A DNA stretch of 23,329 nucleotides from a virus, in the IMG/VR virus record IMGVR_UViG_3300018088_000005, positions 1 to 23,329 of that record; one strand, given 5' to 3'. How positions within the stretch are numbered: the first letter of the stretch is position 1; the number at the start of each line of letters is the position of its first letter. The translations under genes and the position numbers were made by a program. Positions 8,911-14,847 of this stretch are shown one piece after another. Below the pieces are notes generated by a model. That model was not told where the DNA came from. It made no database searches and saw only the letters and a program-made list of their open reading frames with translations.

Positions 8911-10941
8911 TTAGTGGAAGCCGTGATCCGGGTACGGCGTGTCGGCCTGCCCGTCGAAGCCGCTTGTGTCGTGGGTGACGCGCGTGGTCGACATTGAGGG
9001 GATATTTTTGCCGTCGATTGTGACCGTCGTAACAGCCTTCAGATTGACGACCGGCTGCGGCGCGCTGTGAGCGCGGCTCCAATCCCCGCTGCGCATGATT
9101 TCGGCGCGGACGGTTTCGGGGTCGTCGCGGAACCTAGCGGCGTTACGCCTGCTTCGCTCCAACGCCCAGGGGTCGATTGGCTGTCCTTGGCCGCCGAGAT
9201 TCCCATACGAGAACTCGCCTTTGAGCCAAGCAAGTATCGCAGCGTCGTTCGCCTTCGCTTCCGGCGTGCGATTGTCGTCGGTAAGGAAGTCGACGACCGC
9301 CGGAAGGCTTGCGGCGCCGCCGCCGAGATTGAGAAAGCGACCGAAGATGGACTTGGCGCCGGACCAGATCGCGCCGCGATTGAAGAACGCCACCACGCCG
9401 GCGGCTATCGCCGCCAGTTCGCCCTTGCCGCCGAGCGTTTCGTTCGCCTTCTGCAACATAGACGTGGCGTAGGGGAGTACGTTCGACCCGAGATTCATAA
9501 GCTCGACGTTCAGGCCCGCAAACGCGGTGCGGAATTGGACGATCGGCGAATTTTCGAGCGATTGCTTCCACATCGCTTCGCCAGAGATGAAGTCCTTTTC
9601 CTCACCCGCGACAGCGGCCATGATCGAGCGGTTCGTGGGGTCGGAGAAGAACGCCGCCGCCCGGCCGCCTTGGTCGCCCCACAGCGCCTTTTCGACCGCG
9701 AGACGATCCTTGACGTCCAATTTCTCGATACGCTCGCCTGCAATTCCCGTCATCTTGACGAGATCGGGGCGCCCGTCCGTAAACCATGTCGGATTCCCGC
9801 GGTCGTCGATCAGGCCGAGTTTGCGCAGCGAAGGTTCGTGCTGCCGGAACAGCATCTTGCTCATCAGCGACGTGCCGGGGAAGGATCGCGTCGCAAGCTG
9901 CGAAATCCACGTTCCGGCCTTCGTGTTCATGATGCCGGCGCGCTCCATCGCCGTAATCATGAGCAAGACCTGCTCGGGATCGAAATTGGCGGTGCGCAGC
10001 ATCGGAATCGCATAGCCGGCGGCGCGCTCGATCTGCTCGACCGAGACGGGAGTCGTCGTCGAGAGAAAGGCGAAATGGTCGGCTAGCTTGGCGATCTCGG
10101 CGGGAGAGTATTTGCCCTCCATGTGCGCCAGCCCGACGAAGACTTGCATCGCCTCTGGGATGGTCGTCCCGGCCTTCAGATACGCCTCGGTTGCGGACGA
10201 GGCGAGAAGGCCCGGCATAAGCGCCAGGCGCTTTTCTAGGTCGATACCGGCAAGACCGCGCGTCCCGGCCAGAATTCCTTCCTCGATCTGTTCGAGCGGC
10301 AGGCCGGTCATCGTGTATGCCTTGAGGATGGCGTCGCGAATCTTGCCGTAGAGCGGATTCGCCGTCTCCTTGCCTGTCGAGATTCCGCCGGTCAGAAAGA
10401 TGCGGTTGACGAAATCCTGTATCTTGGCTTCCTCATAGGCGCCATAAGCGACCGCGCCGGCGCCGGCGAGCAACGGCGTGCCGCTGATCCGCATATGCTG
10501 ATCGCCGGGAAGGGGAACGGATGCTCCGCTGAAATGGACGCCGCCAGAGCCGGAACCACCGCTCGATCTCGCGCCGTCGCCGTTCCTGATCGACGGCGCG
10601 ATGCGTCCGACGCCTCGACTGGCGCTGGCGAGCCCGCTCATTTCCTTGCGCAGATCGGCGACGAGCTTGGTTGTCGTCGAGACCGATTCGTCAATCTTCT
10701 TGAATCCGACGCCAACGGTCTCGGTCGTGAGCTTCGTCTGGTCGGCGACGCCCTTGAGCGCGCGCCCCATATTGCTGATCGACTTGTTCAGGCCGGTAGG
10801 AAACCTCAGTTCCGCCATCGCCGCTTTCGTGCGGTCGATCACGCCTTGAAGCGCGTTGAACTGATCCATCAGGCGTCTGAGGACGGGCGACGCCTCGTCG
10901 ACAACCTTGAATAGCGCGCCGACTTCGCCTGCGCTGATCAT
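8911..10941 (-). CDS. tail tape measure protein
   Basis: The protein has 676 aa and starts at the ATG at 10941 with AGGATGG upstream, overlapping nothing. Residues 1-110 are helical with coiled-coil patterns (VVDEASPVLRRLMDQFNAL). There follows a Gly/Ser-rich linker at about 125-140 and a PhageMin_Tail-like core at about 170-480 (TGLPLEQIEEGILAGTRGL, QIERAAGYAIPMLRTANFDP). Around residues 510-550 a hydrophobic stretch (AAIAAGVVAFFNRG) fits the membrane-active part that is ejected. At the usual rise of about 1.5 angstrom per residue the tail would be near 100 nm. It lies between the chaperone cluster and the GpU-like gene, as expected. Confidence 0.88.
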   Translation of the reverse strand: MISAGEVGALFKVVDEASPVLRRLMDQFNALQGVIDRTKAAMAELRFPTGLNKSISNMGRALKGVADQTKLTTETVGVGFKKIDESVSTTTKLVADLRKEMSGLASASRGVGRIAPSIRNGDGARSSGGSGSGGVHFSGASVPLPGDQHMRISGTPLLAGAGAVAYGAYEEAKIQDFVNRIFLTGGISTGKETANPLYGKIRDAILKAYTMTGLPLEQIEEGILAGTRGLAGIDLEKRLALMPGLLASSATEAYLKAGTTIPEAMQVFVGLAHMEGKYSPAEIAKLADHFAFLSTTTPVSVEQIERAAGYAIPMLRTANFDPEQVLLMITAMERAGIMNTKAGTWISQLATRSFPGTSLMSKMLFRQHEPSLRKLGLIDDRGNPTWFTDGRPDLVKMTGIAGERIEKLDVKDRLAVEKALWGDQGGRAAAFFSDPTNRSIMAAVAGEEKDFISGEAMWKQSLENSPIVQFRTAFAGLNVELMNLGSNVLPYATSMLQKANETLGGKGELAAIAAGVVAFFNRGAIWSGAKSIFGRFLNLGGGAASLPAVVDFLTDDNRTPEAKANDAAILAWLKGEFSYGNLGGQGQPIDPWALERSRRNAARFRDDPETVRAEIMRSGDWSRAHSAPQPVVNLKAVTTVTIDGKNIPSMSTTRVTHDTSGFDGQADTPYPDHGFH

Positions 10942-10950
10942 GCCGCCATC

Positions 10951-11391
10951 CTATGCGAATAGTTTCTCGGCGAATTTGCCGAACACCTTCTCCATGACCG
11001 GCGTCGCCAGCCAGAGCGATTTGAACAGGAACGACCGCGGCGGCTGTCCGCGGCCCGGCCCATTCGTCCCGAGTTCCGCCCAGAGGGCTTCCTTCTGATC
11101 GGAATAGACCAGTCCTTCGGCGCCCTCGGCGGTCAATTCCGCCTTCGTCGCGATGTCGGCCCGCAACGAGCCCCTCCGCAACAGCGGCTCGTTCTCGGGA
11201 AATCCCGCCGCGACGCGATTCTCTTTCGTGCGGTCGGCGAGTTCCGGCCAGCCATACTCATACGTGCCGATGACTCGCTTCGCCTCCTTGGCGACCTCAT
11301 CCATCACGACTTGCGTCGGCTCGGCGAGCAGAAATTCAGCCTTCGCGGCGGCGCGCGCCAACTTCTCGGCGAACTCGGCGCATGACATCAT
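10951..11391 (-). CDS. minor tail/neck protein, HK97 gp10-like
   Basis: The protein has 146 aa. The frame could extend to a TTG at 11430, but the ATG at 11391 has AGGA 8 nt upstream while the TTG has no binding site, so the ATG is chosen. The pattern is that of the HK97 gp10 / tail-completion group: an N-terminal helix (FAEKLARAAAKAEFLL), WPELADRTKENR, a central PLLRRGSLRADI, then LWAELGTNGPGRGQPPRSFL near residue 115. Such proteins sit at the head-tail joint or tail end. Its position between the chaperone and the tape measure is less usual than next to the neck genes. The start codon abuts the -35 box of the opposite-strand promoter. Confidence 0.7.
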   Translation of the reverse strand: MMSCAEFAEKLARAAAKAEFLLAEPTQVVMDEVAKEAKRVIGTYEYGWPELADRTKENRVAAGFPENEPLLRRGSLRADIATKAELTAEGAEGLVYSDQKEALWAELGTNGPGRGQPPRSFLFKSLWLATPVMEKVFGKFAEKLFA

Positions 11392-11419
11392 TTGACGATT
11401 CCTGTGCGGGCGATATAAT
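11392..11419 (+). promoter_or_regulatory. near-consensus sigma-70 promoter for the plus-strand gene
   Basis: TTGACG (11392-11397, five of six consensus bases) and TATAAT (11414-11419, all six) are separated by 16 bp. A transcript would start near 11426, about 20 nt before the TTG start codon. The window is GC-rich, so a chance match this good is unlikely. The promoter lies over the start region of the minus-strand gp10-like gene and includes its ribosome binding site. Confidence 0.82.
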
Positions 11420-11445: not shown

Positions 11446-11838
11446 TTGCGCATCTGGCTTTCAGCGCCGATAGGCGGGGGACGCAGGGCCGGCATAGGCT
11501 TGGCGCCCGGTGGCGCGCCGTCGCGCGCCGGCATCGGCGACAGGATCGGCGCAATCGCCATCGTCATCGCCATTGCGGCTGGCGCCGGCTGGATTTTCCG
11601 CGACCCGAAGCCGCCAGATTCCGGCTGGACGCCGATCAGCGCGGCGGACCCTCGATATGACCCCTATCCACTAACAGCGGACGCACTAACCAAGATTCGC
11701 GCCGCAATGAATTGCGAGGCGTCGCAGCGCATCGCGATCATGGGGGACGGGCTACGCCATTGCGTCGATAGCGCCACGCCGTTGACCGGCAACGACGTGC
11801 GATACATGGCCGGCAGGCCGCCAGTCATCGGCCGTTAG
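11446..11838 (+). CDS. moron-like small membrane protein of unknown function
   Basis: This is the only plus-strand gene in the window. It encodes 130 aa from a TTG with GGAG 6 nt upstream and its own promoter. Residues 1-33 are basic and Gly-rich; residues 34-51 (IGAIAIVIAIAAGAGWIF) are one hydrophobic membrane segment. The remaining about 79 residues are polar, start with DPKPPDSGWTP and contain two cysteines (90 and 106) that could form a disulfide outside the cytoplasm. Basic residues before the segment predict N-in, C-out. I do not recognise the family. The TAG at 11836-11838 overlaps the convergent TAA of the frameshifted chaperone. The layout fits a prophage-expressed accessory gene, perhaps acting at the envelope; that role is inference. 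Confidence 0.72.
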   Translation: MRIWLSAPIGGGRRAGIGLAPGGAPSRAGIGDRIGAIAIVIAIAAGAGWIFRDPKPPDSGWTPISAADPRYDPYPLTADALTKIRAAMNCEASQRIAIMGDGLRHCVDSATPLTGNDVRYMAGRPPVIGR

Positions 11839-12406
11839 TCGAGACGGATAAACCGCCCCGCCTCGAAATCGAACTTCTCGCCATCCAATTCCCGAAAGAT
11901 GATGACATGGGCGATCCGCTCGCTCTCGGGCCAGCTTTCGGCGACGTCGTAAGGGATTCCGTTCTTGACCAAGATCGCCGTGACGCGGCGGTCGGAATCC
12001 CTTACGAGTTTTTTACGCTGTCCTCCCGCGGCGACGAGAACTTCTCGGCGATCGTGATGGCGATGGCCTCAAGCCCTTCCTGGTCGAGCCGGTCGATCAG
12101 CGCGTCGACCTGAAGCTCGGTCGTCGGGAACGGCACCGGCACGCCGTCGATCGACACGCAGCAACAGGCCGTCGCCGCCATGACGAAATACTGACCTTTG
12201 TCGCCGTTCTCGGCCGACAGCGCCTTCAAGACGCGGCGGCGCAGCGATGCGTTGAAGCGAACGACGCCAAGGTTGCGCCCCTTCGAGTCGGTCGCGTATT
12301 CGACGCGGTTCGCGTCGGCGACGATGGCCTGCGTCGGCGAGAGGGGCGCGGGCGAGGGCGCGGCGGTCGGCGGCGCGCCGACAGTGATGTTCGAGAGGAT
12401 CGTCAT
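11835..12406 (-). CDS. tail assembly chaperone, long -1 frameshift product
   Basis: The product shares its first 133 codons with the chaperone that ends at 12002, then changes to the -1 frame at the A AAA AAC heptamer (12014-12008). Reading resumes at CTC (12008-12006) and continues for 57 codons to the TAA at 11837-11835, giving about 190 aa. The extra part begins LVRDSDRRVTAILVKNG and includes WPESERIAHVIIF and DGEKFDFEAGRFIRLD, a protein-like sequence similar in style to the T part of G/GT chaperones. The -1 frame has no credible start codon with a binding site of its own. Tail chaperones made in two lengths by -1 frameshifting between tube and tape measure genes are conserved in tailed phages, including lambda, P2 and Mu. 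Confidence 0.8.
11947..12014 (+). terminator. terminator-like stem-loop with T6 tract after the plus-strand gene
   Basis: A perfect 15-bp inverted repeat (11947-11961 with 11993-12007) encloses a 31-nt loop that holds its own 5-bp hairpin (11976-11980 with 11986-11990). One base after the stem the plus strand has six T residues (12009-12014). It lies 108 nt after the plus-strand gene stop and would end its transcript. The loop is longer than usual for an intrinsic terminator. Confidence 0.65.
11947..12014 (-). promoter_or_regulatory. programmed -1 ribosomal frameshift signal: A AAA AAC plus stem-loop
   Basis: On the minus strand the heptamer A AAA AAC (12014-12008) is in the correct X XXY YYZ phase with codons GTA AAA AAC. 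It is followed at once by the 5' arm of a perfect 15-bp stem (12007-11993 with 11961-11947), and the zero-frame stop TAA (12004-12002) lies inside that arm. A ribosome on the slip site would open about the first six pairs, leaving a stem of roughly 8-9 bp at a normal distance. The loop has an additional 5-bp hairpin. Confidence 0.8.
12002..12406 (-). CDS. tail assembly chaperone, short zero-frame product
   Basis: The protein has 134 aa; the ATG at 12406 has AAGGA 6 nt upstream. The N-terminal 30 residues are Pro/Ala-rich (GAPPTAAPSPAPLSPTQAI). Residues 31-115 are compact (RVEYATDSKGRNLGVVRFN, LRRRVLKALSAENGDKGQY, CCCVSIDGVPVPFPTTELQ), with a helical end (VDALIDRLDQEGLEAIAITI). The position straight after the tube gene and before the tape measure, together with a perfect slippery heptamer at its end, identifies it as the G-like chaperone that coats the tape measure during tail assembly. 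Three consecutive Cys at residues 86-88 are unusual. Sequence alone gives only weak family signal. Confidence 0.82.
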   Translation of the reverse strand: MTILSNITVGAPPTAAPSPAPLSPTQAIVADANRVEYATDSKGRNLGVVRFNASLRRRVLKALSAENGDKGQYFVMAATACCCVSIDGVPVPFPTTELQVDALIDRLDQEGLEAIAITIAEKFSSPREDSVKNS

Positions 12407-12420
12407 TCGCTATCCTTCGC

Positions 12421-12858
12421 TTAGAGGACTCGGGTCCGCGTCGAGGCGTTCCAGTCGATGCGCTGCGGCACCTTCTCGGCGGCCTTCCATTGTCCGGCCT
12501 GCGCGAGTTTCATCGCGACGCCGGTGAAGACAAACTGCGTCACGGAGCCGTTCTTTTCCTGAATGGTCTGCGTGATCGTGCCGCTGACGGGATTGGCGCC
12601 GGCGTAATAGGTCGCCTCGTAGTTGGCGAAATAGACGTCGATCGACGAGTCGGTTCGATCAAAGTCGAGCGTCCCCCTCCATCCGTTCGGCGCCTCGCCG
12701 AACAGGGGCGGCCCATTCAAGGGCTCGCTGTTGATCGTCTTGGTGATGGGCTCCGCGCTGAATCCGGTGCGCGCGGGGAAGGACACGATGCTCTGCGAGA
12801 CCACATCGAAGATCGTGACCGTTACGTCATGACCGATCGAGAGATTATTGACGGGCAC
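12421..12858 (-). CDS. tail tube protein
   Basis: The protein has 145 aa and starts at a GTG at 12858 with GGAG 8 nt upstream. The sequence (MPVNNLSIGHDVTVTIFDV, PNGWRGTLDFDRTDSSIDVY, GTITQTIQEKNGSVTQFVF) matches small myovirus tube proteins: a beta barrel with a long hairpin. The ends (KAAEKVPQRIDWNASTRTRVL) also fit. Hexameric rings of this protein stack to form the inner tail tube inside the sheath. It directly follows the sheath gene, as usual, with a hairpin in the 73-nt gap. Confidence 0.87.
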   Translation of the reverse strand: MPVNNLSIGHDVTVTIFDVVSQSIVSFPARTGFSAEPITKTINSEPLNGPPLFGEAPNGWRGTLDFDRTDSSIDVYFANYEATYYAGANPVSGTITQTIQEKNGSVTQFVFTGVAMKLAQAGQWKAAEKVPQRIDWNASTRTRVL

Positions 12859-12870
12859 TTAGGCGGCTCC

Positions 12871-12901
12871 AAAAGAAAAGGGGCCGCCGTCAGGCAGCCC
12901 C
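12871..12901 (-). terminator. terminator-like hairpin between sheath and tube genes
   Basis: On the minus strand GGGGCTGCC (12901-12893) pairs with GGCGGCCCC (12888-12880) with one G-U pair and a 4-nt loop, followed by TTTTCTTTT. It ends only 12 nt before the GTG start of the tube gene and touches its ribosome binding site. It may trim the sheath transcript or protect the 5' end of tube mRNA. Confidence 0.78.
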
Positions 12902-12931: not shown

Positions 12932-14803
12932 TTATTGGCCGGGCGGCGTGTTGCTGATCGTCACGCTCGAACCGCCTTCGAGATTGATGATGAAGTAGCG
13001 GACGATCGGGCCGATGATCGCCTTCACGTAGGCGTACTGGTAGCCGAGCGCGGCGGTCGCCTGCGTGTTGTTCGACGTGTCGAGGACCACCTGATAGGCT
13101 TGCGAGCCGTCGAAGGTGTAGATGATGCCGTTCGTCTGCGCGAGCGCAAGGAACTGCTGCAACGCGACCTTCGCCTGAAGCATCTCGGTCGGCGTCATGT
13201 TCGCGCCGATATACTGCGCGCCGACGACCTGGATCGACTTGGCGAGGAAGAAAATCACGCGCGTATATTCGTCGCCCATGATGACCGGGTTGGACGACGT
13301 ATTGATGCCGAGACGATGCACGAAGTTGTTCGTGATCGTCCTGTCGAGCGTGATGACGTCCATCCTAGCCGCAGCGAGATTCTGAAAATCGCTGTAGCCA
13401 TAGGTCTTGCCGAGGACGGTCGATTGCGTGCCGACGATGCCTTGAATCGGCTTGTTCAGGGAGTTGCGCTGCGGCGAGGCATTGCCGAAGAAGCCGAGGG
13501 AGACGGCCTGCGGCGAGGTCATGCGCTGCGGCGTGGCGGTGACGCTATCGTTCCAGATGATCCAGTCGCCGAACAGCACCTTCGCCACGAAGGAGTCGAT
13601 GCCGTATTGCGAAAGCTCGGCGGCGGCGTTGCTGATCGTGTCGGAAGGCTGAGTGGCGAAAATGCAGTAGGCGCCGATGCTGACGCCGAACGCGATCTGC
13701 GTCGACAGCGACGTGAGGTCGCTGCAATCGCAGAGATCGAACTGCGCCACGCCCATGTGGCGCAAGCAATACATGCCCGAGCGCGGCGGCGCGTCGACGC
13801 CGAGGAACGTCGCGGTCGTGATGCTCGTCACGCCGTCCGTGCCGCCAGAGAGGGGCGTGCTGGCGAGGATCGGTGCTGCGGTCGCCGTGCCGGCGGTCGC
13901 AATGATGATGTTCGACGGCGGCCGGATGGTCGACGAGCCGTTATTGATCGCGGCGGCCAAAGCGGTCCAGAGAGCGAGGCCCGACAGGTTTGCGCCGACG
14001 TTATCGTAAATCTCGGTCGCCAGGCCAGGACACGAGACGACGATCTTGTAGCTGTTGGCCGCCGTGCCCTTCGTGAGCAGGACGGCGACGCTGTTGCCGA
14101 GCGATCCGGTGTATTTGGCGGTCCAGGTGACGCCGGTCGTGCCGGCCGTGCCTCCCGAGAGGACCGCACCCGATGCCGTCGCAGCGGACGCGGCGAGGGT
14201 CAGGGCGTTGCCGCCAGTGCCGAGCGCAACGGCGGCGATATTGATCGCGGTCGCCGTCGCCACGTAAGTCATCTTCGCCGTGTTGGCGTCGGCCGAGGCG
14301 TTGAGGACCGCAGCGGCGGCCGTCAGCGTCGCGGCGAGGGCTGTGCCGATCAGGAGTTGGTTGGAGCCGGTGATCGCCGAGACGAACGTCCAGACCGTGC
14401 CGTTGAGCGTGATCGTCGCGGCGGCGCTCGGATTGGCCGAGAAAGTCAGCGAGCCGGTCGCTGCGGCGGCGCCGGTCGCTGGCACGACGGCGCCCGCAGC
14501 GGTATCGGTCCCGTCCGTGATGCGGACGCCCGCGAAATAGCCCGCGCCCTGCGCGGCGGCGAGCAGAACATGGCCGCCCATGTCATAGAGGCGGTTGATC
14601 GTCGGCCCGAAGATCGAGACGTATTGCGCATAGTTGCCGAAGGGCTGCGCGAGGTTGACCGGCCCCCACGACGCGGTGCCGACGATGCCGCAAACGTTGG
14701 TTGCGACGCCATTGAAAAGGAACTGCGGCGGGACGATCTGGACGAGGATTTGCGGGACATTCAGCGCGGACACATTGACCTGTCCGACCTGGGCGATGGG
14801 CAT
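12932..14803 (-). CDS. contractile tail sheath protein with inserted domain
   Basis: The protein has 623 aa and starts at the ATG at 14803; the upstream site is weak (GAAAG). The core is clearly a Mu gpL-type sheath: GIVGTASWGPVNLAQPFGN near residue 40, WTAKYTGSLGN at 227, GGTDG near 320, SGMYCLRHMG near 342. Towards the C-terminus DRTITNNFVHRLGINTSSNP and the final strand region NLEGGSSVTISNTP fit the extended-arm region that links sheath rings. Between GVRITDGTD (about 100) and the TWTAKYTG segment there is an inserted block of about 110 residues rich in Ala and Thr (SLTFSANPSAAATITLNG to TASGAVLSGG). Such insertions lie on the outside of the sheath. It is the largest tail gene after the tape measure. 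Confidence 0.92.
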   Translation of the reverse strand: MPIAQVGQVNVSALNVPQILVQIVPPQFLFNGVATNVCGIVGTASWGPVNLAQPFGNYAQYVSIFGPTINRLYDMGGHVLLAAAQGAGYFAGVRITDGTDTAAGAVVPATGAAAATGSLTFSANPSAAATITLNGTVWTFVSAITGSNQLLIGTALAATLTAAAAVLNASADANTAKMTYVATATAINIAAVALGTGGNALTLAASAATASGAVLSGGTAGTTGVTWTAKYTGSLGNSVAVLLTKGTAANSYKIVVSCPGLATEIYDNVGANLSGLALWTALAAAINNGSSTIRPPSNIIIATAGTATAAPILASTPLSGGTDGVTSITTATFLGVDAPPRSGMYCLRHMGVAQFDLCDCSDLTSLSTQIAFGVSIGAYCIFATQPSDTISNAAAELSQYGIDSFVAKVLFGDWIIWNDSVTATPQRMTSPQAVSLGFFGNASPQRNSLNKPIQGIVGTQSTVLGKTYGYSDFQNLAAARMDVITLDRTITNNFVHRLGINTSSNPVIMGDEYTRVIFFLAKSIQVVGAQYIGANMTPTEMLQAKVALQQFLALAQTNGIIYTFDGSQAYQVVLDTSNNTQATAALGYQYAYVKAIIGPIVRYFIINLEGGSSVTISNTPPGQ

Positions 14804-14828: not shown

Positions 14829-14847
14829 AGCCCGCGCGAGGCGGGCT
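14829..14847 (-). terminator. rho-independent terminator, second of a tandem pair
   Basis: On the minus strand AGCCCGC pairs with GCGGGCT (7 bp, 5-nt loop), running into five U residues and then CATTTC. It is the terminator closer to the sheath start, 25 nt upstream of that ATG. Confidence 0.85.

Follow-up and report, generated by a model that had tools for sequence, protein, structure and literature searches.

Results

The tail module and its opposite strand

The window, by which we mean the whole stretch of DNA analysed here, is a complete IMG/VR contig of 23,329 nucleotides, and its minus strand carries a contractile-tail module. In particular, the module consists of a sheath gene (12932-14803, family match to PHROG 279), a tube-like gene (12421-12858, matching PHROG 12993, a family of unknown function, and named tube from its place), a gene for a 134-aa protein (12002-12406, matching PHROG 20383, likewise of unknown function), a gp10-like gene (10951-11394, product MMSCAEF...) and a tape measure gene (8911-10941, family match to PF10145). 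On the plus strand there is an ORF of 130 aa with a TTG start and one hydrophobic segment (11446-11838), and a promoter scan yielded a sigma70-like candidate for it, TTGACG-16-TATAAT, matching at 11 of 12 positions (11392-11419). Searches of viral contigs and phage records with this ORF returned no homologue, nor was there a convincing match to a family. Between tail genes, the minus strand also bears two hairpins that resemble terminators and end in T-rich tails (14829-14847 and 12880-12901). They are possibly internal attenuators of the structural operon; the overall number of terminator-like hairpins in the window scan is at chance level.

The inverted repeat and the reading frames

Between the plus-strand ORF and the tube-like gene lies a perfect inverted repeat with arms of 15 bp (11947-11961 and 11993-12007) and 31 nt between them, the latter folding into a nested 5-bp hairpin (11976-11990). 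It is the longest perfect inverted repeat in the window with arms less than 80 nt apart, and since Markov shuffles contain only about 0.5 repeats of at least 12 bp per window, chance would not be expected to produce one of 15 bp. Next to it, on the plus strand, is a run of six T (12009-12014), one of three A/T runs of at least six in the window, which a terminator on the plus strand would have as its U-tract. In the minus-strand reading, the same run is the complement of the slippery heptamer A AAA AAC (12014-12008), which stands in exact X XXY YYZ phase of the ORF 12406-12002 (codons GTA AAA AAC TCG TAA). The repeat begins directly after the heptamer and contains the zero-frame stop, TAA at 12004-12002, while the -1 frame (P0001, 11835-12008, minus strand) remains open for 57 codons up to a stop at 11835. 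Folding of the element gives -34.5 kcal/mol (z -3.97 against shuffles) for the minus strand and -39.3 kcal/mol (z -4.45) for the plus strand; an Rfam search gave no match at the element. The initial annotation had described the repeat, the nested hairpin, the adjoining T run, the in-phase heptamer with the stop-bearing stem directly after it and the distance of 108 nt from the end of the plus-strand ORF (11838) to the repeat, and all of this is correct to the base. It should be kept in mind that the window was selected because its repeat is striking, and its uniqueness, as reported below, is partly a matter of ascertainment.

The 134-aa protein

The gene for the 134-aa protein lies between the tail tube and sheath genes and the tape measure gene, which is the place of a frameshifted tail assembly chaperone gene. 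All 53 of the 53 aligned relatives of the protein match PHROG 20383. The PDB entry closest to its structure model (pLDDT 89) is the tail assembly chaperone of HK97, a weak match (E 0.14, prob 0.69); in BFVD, the model matches a Bacillus phage chaperone with a prob of 1.00, and the best viral models include annotated chaperones. Given also its place and its -1 extension, the protein is best read as a tail assembly chaperone. When the phage collection was searched at the DNA and protein level with this region of the window, the chaperone fusion or the -1 domain of a relative, no match was returned. A search of the same collection with the tube protein matched two Komagataeibacter phages only, and a tube-protein screen of 385 genomes from the class of the Acidocella host (G001) recovered only two genomes that were already known.

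Conservation of the heptamer and of the -1 domain

Scans of viral contigs and genome contigs provided about 100 loci that share the -1 domain. In 100 of the relatives scored first (86 of these 100 being unique), the distance from an X XXY YYZ heptamer to the VKNG[IV]P codons is exactly 45 nt, and in the larger set an in-phase heptamer is found at this distance in 105 of 109 distinct loci. The heptamer itself varies among A AAA AAC, A AAA AAG, A AAA AAA and G GGA AAC. Both its phase and the conserved -1 extension are those of a tail-chaperone frameshift. In a sister group, the heptamer appears to be A AAT TTG rather than A AAA AAC (L113, 723-735; L114, 2801-2813). Because the distance between heptamer and VKNG[IV]P codons is fixed, the relatives could be aligned without gaps, and 90 sequences of less than 92% identity to one another make up the alignment used below (A4).

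The exact heptamer and 5' arm of the window recur in only two other viral contigs. L117 is the closest relative; its contig is also that of L122 and L165, and L119 is a second contig, identical over the stretch compared. Window and L117 are counted here as one clade. Overall, 51 of 177 nt differ between the two, and the differences fall at positions 1, 2 and 3 of the -1-frame codons in the numbers 13, 10 and 28, i.e. with a third-position bias in the -1 frame. Counting from the heptamer, there are no differences in nt 1-23 and 46-64 and 10 in nt 24-45, and the stretch of the nested hairpin (11976-11990) is among the parts that differ.

The -1 domain is also present in an isolate phage, phiKX1 (L178, 369-548; LC644975.1, 31738-31917), whose record lists it as a hypothetical protein in its own right, BCZ76064.1. 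The annotation of this phage overlooks the frameshift.

The inner stem

With positions counted from the first base of the heptamer, the 15-bp stem divides into an inner part of nine pairs, 14-22 x 54-62, and an outer part of six, 8-13 x 63-68. The 5' arm of the inner stem (12001-11993 on the minus strand of the window) begins 6 nt after the heptamer, and its 3' arm (11961-11953) falls within the codons for (V)KNGIP in the -1 frame. At least eight of the nine inner pairs are kept in 47 of 86 sequences, as compared with 0-5 in slid registers. What is more, the two arms covary. Namely, pair 16:60 is formed in 76% of sequences (45% expected) by CG, GC, GU and AU, pair 19:57 in 80% (54% expected) by CG, GC and others, and pair 18:58 occurs as both CG and UA. 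For the unselected set of 90 non-redundant sequences, covariation scores 0.210, as opposed to 0.138 after shuffling (0/500), a control which breaks relatedness, and to 0.077-0.140 in slid registers, which preserve it. When 39 members that have the stem are placed on a parsimony tree, 20 double changes preserve pairing as opposed to 1 that does not, a count inflated by the choice of members for having the stem. In L121, a 3-nt insertion is accompanied by a shift of the stem register along with it.

The type of pairs tolerated reveals the strand. Pairs 15-22 include 18 G-U and 1 A-C combinations, and shuffles give 11 A-C. An A-C combination on the minus strand is a G-U pair on the plus strand, and its avoidance implies that the plus-strand RNA is not the one under selection. 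In other words, base-pair evolution indicates that the inner stem acts in the minus-strand RNA, where G-U is tolerated and A-C avoided. Members with the heptamer G GGA AAC, which have no T6, keep the inner stem in 11 of 12 cases, and this fits slippage of the ribosome and not of the polymerase. The spacer of 6 nt between heptamer and covarying stem falls within the usual range of 5-9 nt (PMC5009743), a downstream structure being a common and not a universal part of such signals.

The initial annotation had pointed to covariation of the stem in related phages with and without the plus-strand gene, which it took for moron-like, as a check. Covariation is borne out for the inner 9 bp and not for the outer 6 bp, and the inner stem is kept in dozens of relatives without a plus-strand gene, including phiKX1, whose sequence reads GCA AAA AAC TGA GCA GGCACCCCG ... 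CGGGGTGCC. About half of the relatives do without this particular stem, and some have another. Members of a sister group (L115/L170 and L173) keep AAAAAAC and have neither the plus-strand gene nor a strong stem, L173 being judged by eye; taken alone, they would be in keeping with a stem tied to the gene, but the wider family is not.

Two variants of the stem deserve mention. In L052, L083, L107 and L149, the 5' arm that pairs with the same KNGIP codons is a nearer one, some 20 nt after the heptamer, and the resulting stem has 10-11 bp, at about 27-37 x 55-65. In the Acetobacteraceae-type loci L099, L100, L101, L104, L109 and L111, the stem lies at 13-21 x 54-62, about one base away from the register given above, and the zero-frame stop is 46 nt downstream.

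The outer extension and the plus strand

The outer six pairs (12002-12007, which hold the zero-frame stop, with 11947-11952) behave differently from the inner nine. Namely, the frequency with which they pair in relatives equals the chance prediction. Given the base frequencies of the family, all six would form Watson-Crick pairs with a probability of about 0.001 per sequence, or about 0.012 if G-U is admitted, and the window is alone among 109 distinct loci in having all six. For this reason, only its stem is flush with the T6 (15 bp, a 1-nt gap and U6), no other of the 109 loci having a flush stem of at least 9 bp. L091 has a 14-bp minus-strand stem and no plus-strand gene. The outer 6 bp occupy what relatives use as the spacer, and most likely this extension arose by chance or is private to the window.

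Nearly all relatives lack an insert between the -1 frame and the gp10-like gene, which are directly coupled, and a plus-strand gene with a promoter is found at this site only in the window and in L117. The latter has a promoter-like sequence, TTGACG-17-TATGGT, in the same place as that of the window. On the complement of L117 (907-1017), opposite to the -1 frame and between it and the gp10-like gene, there is a 36-aa hydrophobic ORF, MDKAIFKMRWPKSSAGQILLVIALLYLIGSAINLFK, and the insert site is possibly used by different small membrane proteins. The heptamer and the 5' arm of L117 are identical to those of the window, while its 3' arm reads CGGAATCCCTTTTGA, with a Phe codon where the window has Tyr. 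On the plus strand, its stem comprises 11 bp, then A-C and A-A mismatches, and ends 5 nt from T6; in other words, two positions of the outer 3' half are broken. L117, the one relative found to have a plus-strand gene, is thus predicted to have a poorer terminator than the window, with the frameshift stem kept.

Canonical intrinsic terminators, following the TransTermHP criteria, have loops of 3-13 nt (median 4) and stem-loops of at most 59 nt (PMC12207403). The loop of 31 nt and the hairpin of 61 nt of the present element exceed these limits, its score of the d'Aubenton-Carafa type is -17.7, below threshold, and a scan for terminators with loops of 3-8 nt did not call it; such rules were derived from other species and leave room for a long branched hairpin to act as a terminator. 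The window scan found no other good plus-strand terminator after the ORF before 12.9 kb.

Discussion

We believe, with a probability of roughly 0.8, that in this contractile-tailed phage the element directs programmed -1 ribosomal frameshifting in a gene for a tail assembly chaperone, and we do so because of the conserved heptamer, its fixed spacing, the conserved -1 product and the covarying stem. In the mechanism which these features suggest, ribosomes on the minus-strand mRNA would arrive at A AAA AAC and be held there by the 9-bp stem, which lies 6 nt downstream, at the mRNA entrance. Some of them would slip to AAA AAA and go on to produce a fusion of 190 aa, as opposed to the short form of 134 aa, with the 3' arm of the stem forming part of the KNGIP codons of the -1 domain that they then translate. 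The resemblance to a terminator on the plus strand, where the element probably has no role, would be a geometric by-product of placing a stem beside a heptamer with six A.

Could one and the same element serve both strands, as had originally been suggested? The frameshift half of that proposal is strongly supported by the relatives and by covariation, whereas the terminator half, according to which the element is a plausible intrinsic terminator for the plus-strand gene, finds no support in relatives. The outer 6 bp, on which the terminator reading depends entirely and which the frameshift does not need, pair at chance in the family and are broken in L117, even though L117 has both the plus-strand ORF and the promoter. 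The GGGAAAC subgroup has no U-tract, base-pair evolution marks the minus-strand RNA as the functional one, and the inner stem is kept where there is no plus-strand gene to terminate. Loop, hairpin size and score likewise lie outside the canonical range, and the window was picked for the very repeat in question. That said, an account by frameshifting only has to accept a coincidence, in that an improbable complete extension of the stem occurs together with a rare plus-strand gene. In the window, a 15-bp stem does stand 1 nt before U6, downstream of an ORF with a good promoter and with no other good terminator following before 12.9 kb, and it is the only flush one among 109 loci. It is conceivable, if rather unlikely, that the outer 6 bp are kept in order to reach the U-tract, the minus-strand stimulator doubling as a plus-strand terminator; equally doubtful in our view is the evolutionary form of the same idea, in which a private gain of 6 bp joined the stem to the complement of the heptamer and so provided a terminator for an inserted gene.

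The remaining alternatives are much less probable. Polymerases can slip on homopolymer runs such as A6, and the run could in principle serve transcriptional slippage and not ribosomal frameshifting. However, the members with G GGA AAC have the same stem, spacing and -1 domain, and their existence led us to reject this reading; moreover, L113 and L114 appear to have A AAT TTG, the phase is always X XXY YYZ, and a covarying stem behind a 6-nt spacer fits slippage of the ribosome, which makes a transcriptional origin very improbable. Least probable of all is that the repeat acts as DNA, be it as an operator, a recombination site or the end of a mobile element, or that it is a chance palindrome. 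The perfect symmetry of its 15-bp arms would suit such an element, but the arms covary, tolerate G-U, differ between strands in doing so and are tied in position to the heptamer. For the inner stem, a DNA-level role was rejected on the basis of covariation and of the G-U/A-C asymmetry, and chance could apply to the outer 6 bp only.

As for known systems, dsDNA tailed phages use -1 frameshifting in tail assembly chaperone genes, as in gpG/gpGT of lambda (PMC5009743). The present case shares with it the gene between tube and tape measure, the X XXY YYZ heptamer near the end of the gene and the -1 extension, which is predicted here from sequence to give a longer minor product. It differs in that the proteins belong to PHROG 20383, a gp10-like gene stands between chaperone and tape measure, a covarying stem follows at 6 nt in about half of the sampled members, and the window has an additional plus-strand gene. 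Seen from the plus strand, the stem followed by T6, 108 nt after the ORF, resembles an intrinsic (rho-independent) terminator, but the branched loop of 31 nt, the hairpin of 61 nt and a flush stem not kept in relatives do not. Similarly, in a bidirectional terminator, composed of A-tract, hairpin and U-tract, one hairpin is also read from both strands, whereas here the minus-strand A-run before the stem is in codon phase, and no U-run follows the stem. A link between terminator and frameshift exists in gene 10 of phage T7, where frameshifting is influenced by CCCC in a transcription terminator more than 200 nt 3' (PMC5009743), but there the two are separate elements on the same strand, without mirrored double use. 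Among the papers searched, none offered a precedent for a mirrored terminator/frameshift element. If it were true, the double use would be a striking case of one DNA element acting as different signals on its two strands.

For the family as a whole, the consequences are more direct. PHROG 20383, so far without a function, gains a likely one, in that its members would be tail assembly chaperones that undergo frameshifting and have a stimulator stem that covaries. Their -1 domain has been overlooked in annotation, as in phiKX1, where it stands as a separate hypothetical gene.
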